A stretch of 20,431 nucleotides of DNA from a virus. Below the pieces are notes generated by a model. The model was not told the DNA's origin, ran no database searches, and saw only the letters and a list, made by a program, of their open reading frames with translations. The stretch covers positions 1 through 20,431 of the IMG/VR virus record IMGVR_UViG_3300033143_008306; one strand, 5' to 3'. Numbering within the stretch: position 1 is the stretch's first letter; the number at the start of each line of letters is the position of its first letter. The position numbers and the translations under genes are program-made. Positions 1,565-19,869 of this stretch are shown one piece after another.

Positions 1565-1603
1565 GCTCCGGCCCGGGTTCGCCTGGGCCGGAGCTTTTTT
1601 TTT
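1565..1603 (+). terminator. Strong intrinsic terminator of the left operon
   Basis: GCTCCGGCCC (1565-1574) pairs with GGGCCGGAGC (1585-1594). The stem continues through GGG/CCT (one G-U) to a TTCG tetraloop at 1578-1581. Nine T residues follow (1595-1603). Confidence 0.92.
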
Positions 1604-1800
1604 GCTCTTTTCAAGAAACTTATTTTTAGGGCTCCCGACGATCCGAATTCGGCGTCGGTGAGTAAAGGGCACTCACTTCAAGCAGCGGAGGGCACGCTGC
1701 TCGACCTGGCAAAGAACGCCAGGCGACGTCGAATTCGGATCGTCGGGTTATTCCGGCTGGAGCCGGCCGGGACAACGCCCCGGTGGCGTAAGGAAAAGGG

Positions 1801-1831
1801 CTAACAGAATAAGTTCGGCGCTAGGGCGCCG
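1801..1831 (+). repeat. 31-nt direct repeat, copy 1 (motif plus hairpin)
   Basis: CTAACAGAATAAGTT is followed by CGGCGC-TAGG-GCGCCG. An identical copy lies at 1961-1991. A partial relative at 1932-1960 keeps AACAGAATAAGT but has a hairpin of different sequence (GTGC-TAATT-GCAC). Confidence 0.85.
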
Positions 1832-1960
1832 CCAACGACGGCGTTGGATCCCGCAACCTGCTGCCAGGTTGATCACCAATTATCGTGCGGAAGTCAGAAG
1901 ATCGGCCACAAGTGACTTCCGCCCGATAATAAACAGAATAAGTCTTGTGCTAATTGCACG

Positions 1961-1991
1961 CTAACAGAATAAGTTCGGCGCTAGGGCGCCG
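1961..1991 (+). repeat. 31-nt direct repeat, copy 2 (motif plus hairpin)
   Basis: Identical to 1801-1831 and exactly 160 nt downstream of it. Both copies are internal parts of the structured RNA region. Confidence 0.85.
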
Positions 1992-2060
1992 GGCACTCTG
2001 TAGGGAAGGGCACCTGCGGCAAATCCAGGGGGCCTACAAATCGAAGGCAGCCAGGGCCCG

Positions 2061-2325: not shown

Positions 2326-2520
2326 AACCCAAGGCACCCAAAAACCCGAAGCTACAAGGCACCAAAAAACCCAAAACTTCAAGGAACCCAAGGCACCCAA
2401 AAACCCAAAGCTTCAAGGAACCCAAGGCACCCAAAAATCCAAAGCTTCAAGGAACCCAACGCGCCCAAAAACCCGAAGCTTCAAGGAACCCAAGGCACCC
2501 AAAAACCCGAAGCTTCTATA
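2326..2520 (+). repeat. 34-bp tandem repeat, six copies
   Basis: The unit is AACCCAAGGCACCCAAAAAC followed by CCRAAGCTTCAAGG. Copies lie at 2326-2359, 2360-2384 (lacks the first 9 nt), 2385-2418, 2419-2452, 2453-2486 and 2487-2520 (last bases diverged). 34 is not a multiple of 3, so successive units change reading frame. The ORF running through here therefore has cycling frames and is probably not translated. The plus strand is rich in A and C with few G residues. The function could be a protein-binding iteron array or a Rho loading region, neither shown. Confidence 0.85.
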
Positions 2521-5478: not shown

Positions 5479-5694
5479 ATGCTCGCAATCTGCAAAAAAA
5501 TTCCGGTCAAAGCTAAGCAAAAAAATAAAACCCGAAATGGATTGCCGCATGGAAAATTCACTCTATGCAGGATATATGAGTATAATTTAAATAAATCTAA
5601 TTATGGCGAAAGGGTTGATTATTTTTTTACAGATAACACGGGCCAAACAATATTCATCAATCACTTCAACAAATGGTTCGCGGCGATAGTGTAA
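5479..5694 (+). CDS. Small beta-barrel-like protein, paralog D, overlapping a tRNA
   Basis: 71 residues. It matches paralog B: AICKKIP; GKFTLCRIYEYNL; VDYFFTDNTGQTIFINHFNKWF. The gene is clearly more AT-rich than its upstream neighbours, which suggests a different origin or drift. No strong ribosome binding site is visible; ATG 5479 lies two bases after the previous stop, so reinitiation is likely. Its last 15 nt, including the stop, are also the first 15 nt of the tRNA at 5680-5753. Function unknown. Confidence 0.65.
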   Translation: MLAICKKIPVKAKQKNKTRNGLPHGKFTLCRIYEYNLNKSNYGERVDYFFTDNTGQTIFINHFNKWFAAIV

Positions 5695-5865: not shown

Positions 5866-6222
5866 ATGCCAAGTAAAAATCCAGCAGTTAACAAACGGGC
5901 AAGAGATAAATGGTATAGACTTAACAAAGACAAACAAATAAAAAGACAGATAGAACGAAGAAAAGAATTAATGGAATGGTTTTGGGATTTTAAAAGAACC
6001 TTGTCATGCTCAAGATGCGGGTTTGGATTTAAAGATCACCCTGAATGTTGCGACTTACATCATAAGGACAAAACTAAAAAAAAAGGCAGAGTAAGCGATT
6101 TGGCATTAAGTAGTAAAAACGCAATGTTTAAAGAACTAAAAAAATGCGAACCATTATGTGCAAATTGTCATAGAACAGAACATAAAGACATGTATAACTT
6201 TTCTAGATTAAGAAAAAACTAA
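5866..6222 (+). CDS. HNH endonuclease, free-standing homing type
   Basis: 118 residues. A basic helical N-terminus (1-45) is followed by an HNH/zinc-ribbon domain: C48xxC51, the catalytic-type DLHHKD (H65, H66), and C94...C98xxC101-H102...H106. The size and layout fit the small HNH endonucleases that move between phage genomes. AAGGAG precedes ATG 5866 and a good sigma70-type promoter lies upstream, so it is expressed independently. It is much more AT-rich than the packaging genes, which supports recent transfer. No intron flanks it. It could nick DNA to spread itself or assist another process; HNH proteins beside terminase genes aid packaging, but this one is distant from them. Confidence 0.88.
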   Translation: MPSKNPAVNKRARDKWYRLNKDKQIKRQIERRKELMEWFWDFKRTLSCSRCGFGFKDHPECCDLHHKDKTKKKGRVSDLALSSKNAMFKELKKCEPLCANCHRTEHKDMYNFSRLRKN

Positions 6223-13952: not shown

Positions 13953-16900
13953 TTATTTCCAGAATTTTGTTGATTTTCTCCGGACATATTTTGGCCTGGT
14001 GACCCACCGCAAGAATTGTGACGTCGAATCAACCATATCATCAAACTTACCAAATGGAAACTGAGCTATCTGGGTTTCATACGGAACCACCCAGTCACCA
14101 CGCTCAGGAATATACACTTTCCCGGCTTCAATGATCGGCGAAACCTCGCTCAACCTTACCTGCTTGTTCGCATCGGACTTAATGGCAATAACAGGAATTC
14201 TCGTATAACGCTGCAATTCTTGTATTAAACTCTGGCCACTGGCTTTGTCTTCAATAAGGACGACGACCTGGCCGGCATTAAATTTCATGCAGCGCTCGTA
14301 TTCGGCTATAACAGCTCGTTTAAGCTTTGGAAAAATCAGGCGTTTGTTTATGACATTCATGAGATAATATCGATCTTTAGCGACACCCCAGGTTGTACAG
14401 GCCGACGGATCGTTAATGTCCTGCTCTTTAAAGGCCGTATCCCATGAATTAACAATTTGATTTACCTTAGTGATTTTGCCATTATCGACGCTTGGTTTCA
14501 GGAACCTGCGATATTTTTCACCGGCAAATTTATTTTTGGGCGAGGTCATGTCAGGCATGATTGCATACTGCCAACTTTGATACGGATATTTTTTAAACCA
14601 TTCGATGTCGACAATCCCGCCACCTTCCGGCAGAGGTTGCTGCTGATACAATGCATTCCATTCCCGGGTGCCGATTGTCTTACGGATTCTGTCGAGGCGT
14701 TTGCGGCCGTATTTTGTTGGCCAGAGGGCATCGCCAATCTCACGGCCGATAACATCCCCGTCATCGTCAGCGATGGCCGGAAGGTCTAACACAGTCCAAT
14801 TTTCATGCTCGGCTTCATCAAGCAAAAACCCGGCAAGGTCATAAAAACTCCACCGGGTCATAATAACAATAATTGAATTATTATCCATAAGCCGGGTATA
14901 GGCTACGGCTTTGAACCAGTCTCGCAACTTGCGCTGGGCAACATCACTCTCGGCATCCTCGCGGCCTTTTGTGGGGTCGTCGATGATCAAGCAGTTATGG
15001 ACGAGTATTTCGTTTGCAAAGAAATTGTTTGTTCCTTCCACCTGGATGTCATAGACCGGGACTTCTCCACAGCGTATCTTTCGAACCGCCACATACCCTG
15101 TTCCAACCACAAAAAATGGATGGTCCCCGGTTGATTTGATTTTTTTACCGGATTTTGTACTAACTTCATAGATATCATCTTTTGATGAAACCATTGTGGC
15201 GACTATTTTCCTGAATTCCTGGGTTTTTAGATTTTCGTTCCACGATAATACTTCAATCTTTTCACCACTTCGCATCAATTCAACAAGCTTTTTAATTTCA
15301 AGAAAGCCACGGTCTGTTTCAATTTTTGTCAATGATGTCAGACAGTTAGCACCCCTCCCTGTGATTGCGCCACCAACACCAACCGAATAATACATGCCAT
15401 CCTGTTCGGTCGAGAATTTGTTGGCGCCTTTGCTGTCCTTGGATATTCGGCAGCCGCTGAAAACTTGCTGATGAAAAGCTGAAGTCAGCTGGTTTCTGAC
15501 CTTACGGCCGATATCATTTGCACGGTCGAATGAATAGGTTGTACCGATAATATGACGACTTGGATTACGCCCAAGGTACCAGGCTGGAAAGTATTCTGAA
15601 GCGATGAGGGTATTATGTGACACGAAACCATTTACAATAAAATTCTGGGTTCCTGACACTTGAATATGGACGAGTTTTTTTATCCCAGCATCTTCAATTT
15701 TAATAACTCGATCATATATGAAATCCATTTCAAGATATTTTTGAAGTTCGGGATAGACTTTTGCCAAACGCTGCATTCTGCTTTGCGATATATTTTTGCT
15801 ATTGTCACACCTGAATCCGTTCTTTCTGGCACGACGCAACGTTTTACCTATTGCATTCGGAAACACATCAGTCAAACTACAGGATGCCTTCTTTAACAGT
15901 TCCTTGCAGAATTTCTTTTTATTACCAAGATCACATCTATTATAAATTTTTTGAAGCTGGCTTCTGCCGATATTTAATACCCATGCATTCGAACAATCAT
16001 TAGGTTTAAAAGTCTTAGATGCCACAATGCCACTCATAGATAACAACGTTTGAATATCCTCTATAAGCTCCTTGTTTGCCAAGGTTACTCCAGCTGATCC
16101 TGCTTTCATACAAAAATATCCATCGGTTTGGAACATGATCCCGATGAATATAAATTTTTGTCTTAACGACATCTTAAAAAATTCTTGAGGCAGGCGTTTG
16201 GAAGTAGCCTTATGGCCAAGAATTCCATATTTTTCAAGGATTGGTCGAGCTTCAAAGCTTACATTATAATCACAACTGTTTTTTGAAGGAGGTTGTCTAA
16301 CTGAAATACCAAGGGCATTCGATGCTTTTACGAAATTATTGATAACATATTTATCGCCATTGGAAAAACCCAACGAACTCGTTGAACAAGCTCCTTCAAA
16401 AATCATGTTAGCGATAAAAATAAGTTCATTATCATCTATTTCATAATCAAAATCCATTTCTTTATGAATGGTTAATAAAAAATCACCTATCTTAAATTCT
16501 TCAGCTTTTTTATAGGCATTTTGATAATCGGCGTAGGCAAGCATAGGATGGTCATGGCTGACGGTTACGGTTCGCCCGGTTCTGGATGTAAGACTAAGGC
16601 TTTGTTTCCGTGTAAACTCTTTTCCTAAAACTTCTTGAGTAACAAGCTTACCGTTGTCATAGGATAAAAGCTTGTCTCCGACCTTTATGTCGCCCATTTT
16701 AACGACAGATCCATCGGCCATATGAGCTAAGTCATTGATATCGCAGCACTTCCCATGCCGCGGCGGCATGAAGATCATAAGCCGACTTATATCTCCACGC
16801 TCCACTGCTTCGAGATGATTGGCTATAAGCTGATGATGCTTCGAAATTTCATACCCATCCCACTGCAATCTGACATAAGAAAGCAAACAACTGTGGGCGG

Positions 16901-16964
16901 CGTCTTCAACCGACAAATCTTTACCCTGAGATTCATTGGTCGCAACCATCTTGGTTCTGGCCAT
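13953..16964 (-). CDS. terL: Terminase large subunit with two inteins
   Basis: 1003 residues as encoded, about 507 after removal of two inteins. The exteins carry a Walker A-type PPRHGK-T (67-72 joined to 452), the Walker B region LIIDDPTKG (659-667), a coupling-motif-like MTRW (702-705), and the nuclease acids D842 (SWDTA), D906 (IEDKASG) and D975/D979 (FDDMVDS). This is the ATPase-plus-nuclease motor that cuts and pumps DNA into the head. Intein 1 covers residues 73-451 and intein 2 residues 541-657. Activity should require both splicing events. The start follows AAAGGA, a few bases after the small subunit stop. Confidence 0.95.
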   Translation of the reverse strand: MARTKMVATNESQGKDLSVEDAAHSCLLSYVRLQWDGYEISKHHQLIANHLEAVERGDISRLMIFMPPRHGKCCDINDLAHMADGSVVKMGDIKVGDKLLSYDNGKLVTQEVLGKEFTRKQSLSLTSRTGRTVTVSHDHPMLAYADYQNAYKKAEEFKIGDFLLTIHKEMDFDYEIDDNELIFIANMIFEGACSTSSLGFSNGDKYVINNFVKASNALGISVRQPPSKNSCDYNVSFEARPILEKYGILGHKATSKRLPQEFFKMSLRQKFIFIGIMFQTDGYFCMKAGSAGVTLANKELIEDIQTLLSMSGIVASKTFKPNDCSNAWVLNIGRSQLQKIYNRCDLGNKKKFCKELLKKASCSLTDVFPNAIGKTLRRARKNGFRCDNSKNISQSRMQRLAKVYPELQKYLEMDFIYDRVIKIEDAGIKKLVHIQVSGTQNFIVNGFVSHNTLIASEYFPAWYLGRNPSRHIIGTTYSFDRANDIGRKVRNQLTSAFHQQVFSGCRISKDSKGANKFSTEQDGMYYSVGVGGAITGRGANCLTSLTKIETDRGFLEIKKLVELMRSGEKIEVLSWNENLKTQEFRKIVATMVSSKDDIYEVSTKSGKKIKSTGDHPFFVVGTGYVAVRKIRCGEVPVYDIQVEGTNNFFANEILVHNCLIIDDPTKGREDAESDVAQRKLRDWFKAVAYTRLMDNNSIIVIMTRWSFYDLAGFLLDEAEHENWTVLDLPAIADDDGDVIGREIGDALWPTKYGRKRLDRIRKTIGTREWNALYQQQPLPEGGGIVDIEWFKKYPYQSWQYAIMPDMTSPKNKFAGEKYRRFLKPSVDNGKITKVNQIVNSWDTAFKEQDINDPSACTTWGVAKDRYYLMNVINKRLIFPKLKRAVIAEYERCMKFNAGQVVVLIEDKASGQSLIQELQRYTRIPVIAIKSDANKQVRLSEVSPIIEAGKVYIPERGDWVVPYETQIAQFPFGKFDDMVDSTSQFLRWVTRPKYVRRKSTKFWK
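14994..15344 (-). other. Intein 2 of terminase: mini-intein before Walker B
   Basis: Residues C541-N657 of the terminase (117 aa). It starts with C541, has the block B motif T612-G-D-H615, and ends with VEGTNNFFANEILVHN; the next residue is C658. Joining N540 to C658 restores GRGAN-CLIIDDP, a continuous Walker B region. At this length there is no room for a homing endonuclease domain, and no LAGLIDADG or HNH motif is seen. Confidence 0.93.
15612..16748 (-). other. Intein 1 of terminase: full-length, in Walker A
   Basis: Residues C73-N451 of the terminase (379 aa). It begins CCDINDLAHMADGS and has block B T134-V-S-H137. The LAGLIDADG-type endonuclease has two motifs (about 183-191 with E190, and 273-282 with D281 in FQTDG), and it ends VSGTQNFIVNGFVSHN before T452. 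Joining K72 to T452 restores the P-loop GKT. Key splicing residues (C1, TxxH, HN, +1 Thr) are present, so it should be active in splicing. Confidence 0.93.
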
Positions 16965-17809: not shown

Positions 17810-18646
17810 ATGAAGCTCAAACTTGATGATGCAGGAAGCGTAGTTGTTAAGGACGGATTGCCGATTTATATCATGGACGATGGAAAGGAGCAGGCGTTCG
17901 ATGCCCCCGGAACATTGTTCAAGGTTAAAAGTTTAACCGAAGAGAAAGATCGGCACTTTGAAAAAGCATCAAAACTTCAGGTAAAGATCGACGACAGTGC
18001 CAAAGCGCTCAAAGTGTTTGAAGGCATTGATCCGGTAACCGCGAAAGCGGCACTGGAAACAGTCGAAAAGCTTGACGGCAAGAAGATGATCGATGCCGGA
18101 GAGTTCGATAAGCTGAAGGAACAGATGCAGGGTATCCAGGATACCAAACTTGCGGAGCAGGCCTCCGATTATGATAAAAAAATTGGAGACTTCGAAGTTC
18201 AGGTTGGTGCCCAGAAAAATACAATCGATAATTTGATGATAACATCCAACTTTGCCAAAAGTCCGCTCTTCTCGGGTGATAAGCCCAAGACGATTTTGAC
18301 CCCGGACATGGCGGTAAGCGCATTCGGCGGGAACTTCAAGGTCGAAGGCGATGGACTTACACCGAAATTGATTGGATACCTTAACGGAGAAAAAATTCCG
18401 TCCACCTCAAATGTCGGTGAACCAGCCGATTTCGAGGAAGCAATAGCCGTAATCATCGAAAAGCACCCCGGGAAAGAGCGGTTCCTGACTTCCCCGGACG
18501 GCGGAGGCCCCGGTGCCGGTAGCAATTTTAGCAGAGACGGTCGGGCCGTTGTGATTTCGGAAGAAGATGCACACAATGTAGTCAAATACAGAGAAGCACA
18601 AGCAAAAGCCGAAAAAGCAGGGGTTCCGATTCAAGTTGGTAATTAA
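17810..18646 (+). CDS. Capsid scaffold-like protein
   Basis: 278 residues. A small beta N-terminus with VVKDGLPIYIMDDGKEQAFD is followed by a long charged coiled-coil region (about 40-140) and a C-terminus with a glycine-rich GGGPGAGSNF segment and a terminal helix. The N-terminus resembles DUF6651-type phage proteins found just before coat genes; the coiled coil and position directly before the coat protein point to an assembly scaffold. GGGAGG ten bases before ATG supports the start. A 23-nt gap separates it from the coat gene. Confidence 0.75.
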   Translation: MKLKLDDAGSVVVKDGLPIYIMDDGKEQAFDAPGTLFKVKSLTEEKDRHFEKASKLQVKIDDSAKALKVFEGIDPVTAKAALETVEKLDGKKMIDAGEFDKLKEQMQGIQDTKLAEQASDYDKKIGDFEVQVGAQKNTIDNLMITSNFAKSPLFSGDKPKTILTPDMAVSAFGGNFKVEGDGLTPKLIGYLNGEKIPSTSNVGEPADFEEAIAVIIEKHPGKERFLTSPDGGGPGAGSNFSRDGRAVVISEEDAHNVVKYREAQAKAEKAGVPIQVGN

Positions 18647-18669
18647 TAACTTGTAAAGGAGACTTTAAA

Positions 18670-19869
18670 ATGGCGAATACAATCAGTCCTTATAACCCAA
18701 TTTTTTACGCTCAGGAAGGACTTAAGGTCCTCGAGAATGCGCTTGGCATGGCCAGTCGTGTTTACATGGGCTACGATTCCGAACGTAAATCGGCTAACAA
18801 AGGCGATACAATTCAGATCCGTAAGCCTGGAACTTTCAGTACCTCAACCGGTGGAACCTCCACCACGGCAAATGTTGTTCCGTCCAGCCTCGACCTGACA
18901 GTCGATACCTGGAAACAGGTAAAATTCGGCCTCACGGACAAAGAGCTGGCCTTCACAACCGAGAAAATCATTGCTGATCATATCAGCCCGGCGGTCTACG
19001 CGCTGGCAGTTGATATTGAGACCGCACTGACCAATCTTTATAAAGACGTTCCCTGGTCCTACGATATCGGTGCAACACCCGGATCGGCAGACATTATCGG
19101 CGGCAGGAAGATTCTGCGCGACAATGCCGGCGGACTCGTTGATTCCGATCTGATCCACTTCGGAATTGATTCCACCCTCGAAGCATCGTTCCTGAATGCC
19201 GAGATTTTCCATGCAGCCAGGATTGCAGGCGACGGTGAAAATAAAGACGCCCTTAAAAACGGCGGACTTGGCCAGCGTTTCGGGTGTGAACATTTCGTAC
19301 AGCAAACACTCACGAATCATACCTCAGGTACAGCGATTTCGGTAAAGACCGATCTCCTGGGTGCGGCCTCCGGAGTGCATGCACTCGGTGCAGAGAGTCT
19401 GACAGTCACGGCTCTTGGCGCATCGTCTTCAGCAATCGCCGAAACTCTGGTAGCTGGAGATAGTTTTTCCATTGCCGGCGATACCCAGCGCTACGCCGTA
19501 ACAGCAGGTGTAACTCTGACCGGTGGTTTGGGTACCATTTCCTTTACACCGCCCCTCAAGGTAGCCCTGACCGGAAGTGAAGTTGTTACACTGGAAACAG
19601 TTGATTCAACAAACTTCGCTGACAGGTTTTACGTAAACCTAATGTTTCACCGCAACGCATTTGCCATAGCCATGGCGCCACTGCCTGACCTTGGCAACAA
19701 TGCAGGAGCCCAGATGGCGGTTATCACCGATCCTCGAACCGGACTCTCCATGCGCTCAAGACTGGCGTACTACGATGAATCCGCAACGGTGAAAATCACT
19801 CTCGACGTTCTGTTCGGTGTGAAAACACTTGATCCGAACCTGGCTGTTGTATTACGACGGAATTATTAA
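18670..19869 (+). CDS. Major capsid protein, P22 coat type
   Basis: 399 residues. The N-terminus MANTISPYNPIFYAQEGLKV, the GDTIQIRKPGTF strand, the TWKQVKFGLTDKELAF segment and the end with YYDESATVKITLDVLFGVKTL are typical of P22 coat-type proteins (HK97 fold). A beta-rich region at about 225-310 (alanine-, glycine- and threonine-rich) fits an insertion domain. AAAGGAG precedes ATG 18670. It builds the icosahedral head with the preceding scaffold and is followed by two terminators, which fits high expression. No tail genes are visible in this window. Confidence 0.9.
   Translation: MANTISPYNPIFYAQEGLKVLENALGMASRVYMGYDSERKSANKGDTIQIRKPGTFSTSTGGTSTTANVVPSSLDLTVDTWKQVKFGLTDKELAFTTEKIIADHISPAVYALAVDIETALTNLYKDVPWSYDIGATPGSADIIGGRKILRDNAGGLVDSDLIHFGIDSTLEASFLNAEIFHAARIAGDGENKDALKNGGLGQRFGCEHFVQQTLTNHTSGTAISVKTDLLGAASGVHALGAESLTVTALGASSSAIAETLVAGDSFSIAGDTQRYAVTAGVTLTGGLGTISFTPPLKVALTGSEVVTLETVDSTNFADRFYVNLMFHRNAFAIAMAPLPDLGNNAGAQMAVITDPRTGLSMRSRLAYYDESATVKITLDVLFGVKTLDPNLAVVLRRNY

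Follow-up and report, generated by a model that had tools for sequence, protein, structure and literature searches.

A hairpin-dense, gene-free locus upstream of an ATPase gene in a tailed phage, possibly built by fold-back template switching

Introduction

The large RNAs GOLLD and ROOL have extensive secondary structure, known from covariation, and are often found near tRNA islands (PMC12286853). Another large phage RNA, of ~800 nt, is expressed in ICP1 (PMC7567579). Rows of hairpins are also known from other systems: TIGR systems include stem-loop arrays (PMC12045711), and template switching is able to create and maintain hairpins (PMC8794818).

Here we describe a locus packed with hairpins in the IMG/VR record IMGVR_UViG_3300033143_008306, a fragment of a tailed-phage genome. 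The whole stretch that was analysed, 20,431 bp, is referred to as the window. The locus is like GOLLD and ROOL in its size class, its gene-free phage surroundings and its many stems, but it has no Rfam match, conserved core or tRNA island, and it is strand-symmetric. It shares with the ICP1 transcript a large ORF-less space in a phage genome; the ICP1 RNA differs from it as an established transcript with unremarkable folding z-scores (−1.6 to −2.8 against shuffles). The stem-loop arrays of TIGR-Tas systems are likewise rows of palindromes, and Tas is encoded in several relatives of this phage, whereas the window has no Tas, no edge or loop motifs and no spacer-sized loops. Inverted repeats made by template switching (quasi-palindromes) resemble the locus in their near-perfect arms, strand symmetry, short loops and nested copies, and resemble its counterpart in the related lineage G002 in the capture of neighbouring sequence; they differ from it in that the hairpins described here are concentrated at one place per genome across several related phages and have loop lengths which cluster at 4 and 7 nt.

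Results

The window was assigned to a tailed phage by its portal, terminase and P22-type coat genes, and also carries genes for a MoxR-like ATPase (6973) and for a VWA-type protein (9976). Downstream of the hairpin locus, a series of small genes leads to the ATPase, which is 5.4 kb from the locus. A sequence-only reading had described dense hairpins in a region with no ribosome binding site and no credible ORF, directly after a strong terminator and with no adjoining nuclease partner, and all of this was borne out. The terminator is real (Table 1), and the ORFs which cross the locus (1526-1804, 1954-2205 and 1484-1672 on the minus strand) have no Pfam match and, as read from the sequence, no Shine-Dalgarno sequence; the region holds no credible gene and is non-coding. 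No nuclease gene lies closer than 3.8 kb, where there is an HNH-like ORF (at 5866; PHROGs match; the Pfam HNH match is below cut-off only), and the sole tRNA of the window, a tRNA-Gly at 5680, is 3.6 kb away.

Other features of the window were also recorded. Perfect hairpins at 288-310, 918-942 and 1157-1184 stand right before the ribosome binding sites of successive small genes, and two of the three are near-identical. An OB-fold/SSB identity for the gene at 334-906 was rejected, as its similarity to an ORF of G002 reached only E 0.1-0.2 and both AlphaFold models were too poor. Two inteins apparently split the large terminase (13953-16964, minus strand): Intein_splicing (in three stretches), Hint and LAGLIDADG_3 scored above their cut-offs, and one more Hint-like stretch, at 561-634, scored below. 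Cumulative GC skew, used in a search for an origin, gave local signals only, with a local switch in the window.

Both strands of the locus fold far more strongly than expected. The minimum free energy of 1628-2064 was −212.6 kcal/mol on the plus strand, where dinucleotide shuffles gave −160 (z = −7.6 from 100 shuffles and −8.2 from 25), and −209.0 kcal/mol on the minus strand (z = −9.1 and −12.3 in two runs). At least twelve successive stems had been proposed, with almost no unpaired sequence between them. The fold has 18 helices of at least 4 bp; the remark on unpaired sequence was too strong a statement, because 66% of bases are paired, about one third are unpaired, and alternative folds compete in parts of 1768-1853 (p 0.4-0.9). 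Pair probabilities were 0.97-1.0 for the domain at 1634-1747 and the hairpin at 1879-1930. Counting only compact perfect hairpins (arm of at least 6, loop of 3-8), we found 7 in the locus, against a mean of 0.56 and a maximum of 4 in 500 shuffles; this corresponds to 16 per kb, compared to 1.65 per kb in the rest of the window. The hairpins of the locus are therefore real and far above chance. Loop lengths in the hairpin loci cluster at 4 and 7 nt. The motif GGGCAC occurs four times on the plus strand within 1667-2013, out of seven plus-strand occurrences in the window.

Table 1 Features of the hairpin locus and its flanks in the window, and Tas genes of related phages
Feature	Position	Strand	Remarks
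Intrinsic terminator	1565-1601	+	13-bp stem and T9; ends the upstream transcript; directly 5' of the locus
Whole hairpin locus	1629-2059		Termini can pair (GGGC 1629-1632 / GCCC 2056-2059)
Four-way (cloverleaf) domain	1634-1747		Symmetric on both strands
Closing stem of cloverleaf	1634-1657/1724-1747		24 bp, one G-T pair
Three hairpins enclosed by the 24-bp stem	1658-1676, 1681-1701, 1705-1723		Each with a 7-nt loop
Small hairpin CCGGC-TGGA-GCCGG	1753-1766		p 0.64; competing folds
Exact 32-nt repeat GCTAACAGAATAAGTTCGGCGCTAGGGCGCCG, copy 1	1800-1831		Holds a 6-bp hairpin with a 4-nt loop
Hairpin CCAACG-ACGG-CGTTGG	1832-1847		
Hairpin CAACCTG-CTGC-CAGGTTG	1854-1871		Alternative pairing with 2046-2055
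18-bp hairpin	1879-1930		One mismatch; 16-nt loop
Diverged third copy of the 32-nt repeat	1932-1952		81%; small hairpin at 1946-1960
Exact 32-nt repeat, copy 2	1960-1991		With the hairpin of copy 1
C/A-rich, G-poor tandem repeats	2326-2516		About 5 copies of a 34-bp unit; separate the locus from the operon 3' of it
TIGR-Tas endonucleases (relatives)	L105:7697-8970; L134:11131-13345, 18533-18912; L104:14471-15262		

The 34-bp tandem repeat is probably associated with the hairpin locus. Its minus strand is G-rich, with GGG runs.

The flanks of the locus bear on how it might be transcribed. No clear promoter was found in the 33 bp between the terminator and the locus and no terminator was found 3' of it, while an AT-rich repeat, possibly promoter-like, occurs 3' of the locus at 2587 and 2981. 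The position between a terminator and an operon is what would be expected of a cis-acting leader or spacer (for antitermination, insulation or RNase III processing) in the transcript entering the small-gene operon, and the other intergenic hairpins before ribosome binding sites are consistent with this, as is TGCTCTTTTC after the terminator, a putative boxA-like site. We consider a leader improbable, as the AT-rich repeat, if it is a promoter, means that the operon may not read through the locus, and no sequence is conserved among the relatives.

We compared the locus to catalogued RNAs and to phage and prokaryotic sequences. No Rfam family reached its gathering score over the locus, with matches at E ≤ 10 lying far below it, in agreement with the earlier statement that no known RNA could be matched; no ROOL, GOLLD or other model named the region. 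The GOLLD, ROOL and OLE models gave no match at E ≤ 1 over the window or at E ≤ 10 over 1550-2330, and when Rfam was run on the window and seven related loci only tRNAs were above threshold. Group I and II introns, ribozymes and retrons were rejected, since Rfam gave no match and none of the genes was recognised as a reverse transcriptase. A blastn search of 50,697 phage records gave one weak match, judged to be chance. Exact-pattern searches found only short matches of chance length in 2.9 million viral contigs (the repeat in 42 contigs) and two short chance-level matches, in 2 contigs, among 84,980 prokaryotic genomes. A covariance model built from the single cloverleaf sequence and run on 56 sources (0.95 Mb, mostly related loci) matched only itself, on both strands.

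We gathered relatives through the coat and ATPase proteins and scanned them for folding outliers. In four related lineages (G002, G005, G007 and L163/L164) the strongest hairpin cluster also lies upstream of the same ATPase gene, and G002 and G005 have no strong folding outliers other than these. L163 (2 kb) and G007 (2.4 kb) have the clusters nearest to the ATPase, the window (5.4 kb) and G002 (6-8.6 kb) come next, and G005 (13.5 kb) has the most distant one. No sequence is shared among the clusters of the window and its relatives, and about 65 other ATPase relatives have no such outlier within the flanks examined. The shared position relative to the ATPase is suggestive but loose. One further folding outlier, at L113:19601, was dropped because it falls in a coding region. 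Direct repeats adjoin the hairpin locus in the window, G007 and G002, and are C/A-rich in all three. Replication-type genes are found nearby in two lineages: SSB in G005, and a helicase and a DNA polymerase exonuclease subunit in G002. Immediately after the hairpin locus of G005, DUF4326 and NADAR-domain genes are found (L105:4168-4937).

At the G002 locus (L104:10444-11908), a palindrome of 421 bp abuts another of about 1044 bp. The larger palindrome has an intact 141-aa ORF as one arm and a decayed inverted copy of this ORF as its right arm; mismatches in this long arm are mostly transversions or gaps. Over all arms of G002 and G005, G-T and A-C mismatches are about equally frequent, with no preference for G-U. 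The G002 pattern is characteristic of an inverted duplication that has decayed, and not of stems maintained so that one RNA strand can pair. The copied neighbour from which an arm derives can be traced clearly in G002; the window shows short matches only (e.g. 1166-1177 / 1635-1646). The G002 stems also contain recurring internal motifs, read from the sequence as AGC|GAT opposite YCT|GCT.

Such inverted arms could in principle be inverted chimeras produced during assembly or amplification, and strand-displacement amplification is known to yield chimeric byproducts (PMC9484634). The window locus has many short, differing hairpins and exact repeats 160 bp apart, the arms in relatives have diverged by several percent, and the G005 locus is identical in three contigs and the L163 locus in two, all of which makes an artefact very improbable.

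We next consider whether the locus is RNA or DNA in its action. The sequence-only reading had likened it to GOLLD and ROOL. One alternative, somewhat unlikely in our judgement, is that it is transcribed into a large, structured non-coding RNA, belonging to a new phage family that evolves very fast and folding as a closed unit with a 5' cloverleaf. This would fit a gene-free, GC-rich region directly 3' of a terminator, whose ends pair together and whose folding stability is extreme. However, G-U pairs make up only 6.2% of pairs on the plus strand and 4.9% on the minus strand of the window, compared to 11-12% in shuffles. The same holds more widely: in the window, the first palindrome of G002, G005, G007 and L163 the two strands fold about equally and G-U content is 1-8%, compared to 7-15% in shuffles. 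The second G002 palindrome, the only part of a locus for which ordinary G-U content was reported, has about 10% on both strands and no strand preference. The RNA reading is weakened by this strand symmetry, by the scarcity of G-U pairs and by the mismatch pattern in relatives, and also by the missing Rfam match, the self-match only of the cloverleaf model and the lack of a clear promoter or a 3' terminator. The likeness to GOLLD and ROOL is not supported, given in addition that the tRNA is distant and that what corresponds to it in G002 is an inverted duplication in decay.

A distant ATPase relative, L134 (IMGVR_UViG_3300005253_000193, a contig of about 106 kb), has a strand-specific structured non-coding region at a comparable position, which can be counted in favour of an RNA in the window. 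This gene-free region of ~840 nt (L134:5860-6700) lies 3.4-4.1 kb upstream of an ATPase homolog and has no Rfam match and no phage match. One strand folds to −337 (z = −5.3, 20% G-U) and the other to −265 (z = −1.9, 7% G-U). A real structured RNA is expected to show just this difference, and L134:5860-6700 is a better candidate for a large RNA than the window locus; the strand comparison can thus tell the two cases apart. It should be noted that strand symmetry alone cannot exclude RNA, because the expressed ICP1 RNA shows no clear strand difference, and a young or GC-rich RNA could also appear strand-symmetric. The argument for the DNA level is based on symmetry, scarce G-U pairs, near-perfect arms and the G002 decay in combination.

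Tas endonucleases are encoded in the relatives G002, G005 and L134 (Table 1), and G002 has Tas and hairpins but no dual-repeat array, which raises the possibility that the hairpins are a stem-loop guide-RNA array serving a Tas encoded elsewhere in the phage. The arrays of G005 and L134 have the edge motif AGCGAG[TC]CA, the loop motif AGAAA[CT]CCA and a 36-nt period, and the G005 array lies apart from the hairpins of that phage. Most of 80 Tas loci have arrays of 36-nt period, usually beside the gene, and hardly any have a hairpin outlier. The window, a genome fragment of 20 kb, has no Tas (Nop-domain) gene, no 36-nt period and no paired edge/loop array, and the unit of its 34-bp tandem repeat is conserved over the whole length; two spacers of 8-12 nt do not fit into loops of 4 and 7 nt, and the single loop of 16 nt has no room for two spacers and boxes. 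A TIGR-Tas array in the window is rejected as far as a fragment allows, and we give a guide array serving a distant Tas hardly any credence. The G002 hairpin locus remains odd, having Tas without a dual-repeat array and recurring motifs in its stems.

Discussion

We tentatively favour, with a little under even confidence, the reading that this is a hairpin-dense inverted-repeat locus built by fold-back template switching and probably acting at the DNA level near replication genes. The arms of the relatives and the window are strand-symmetric, near-perfect and without G-U bias, the pattern expected of a template-switch locus. A replicating strand would fold back and copy itself, so that stems are both made and held near-perfect, and in G002 this copying may have captured an inverted copy of the neighbouring gene. 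More speculatively, the locus might act as DNA, perhaps as an element associated with replication or recombination, with hairpins which would extrude while the DNA is single-stranded, aided in some phages by the adjoining C/A-rich direct repeats.

Several observations speak against this reading. The clustering of loops at 4 and 7 nt is not predicted by simple template switching, and GC-rich packed hairpins and multiway junctions are also RNA-like. The variable distance to the ATPase and the ~65 relatives without an outlier in the flanks examined indicate that the position is loosely conserved, and the cumulative GC skew shows only a local switch in the window. The locus could instead be a tolerated mutational hot spot without function.

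It is also conceivable, and in our opinion unlikely, that these loci represent phage elements of a new class: large structures made of hairpins, in DNA or RNA, whose genomic position stays roughly constant in several lineages and whose sequence and exact structure are replaced completely as template switching rebuilds them.

That a phage region without genes folds with extreme energy should not in itself be taken as evidence for a large RNA. Here it was the comparison of the two strands, by fold energy and G-U content, which set this locus apart from the better RNA candidate in L134. If the position of such loci is kept and their sequence is not, then structure density itself may be selected, and selection of this kind, if true, would be invisible to homology and covariation searches.
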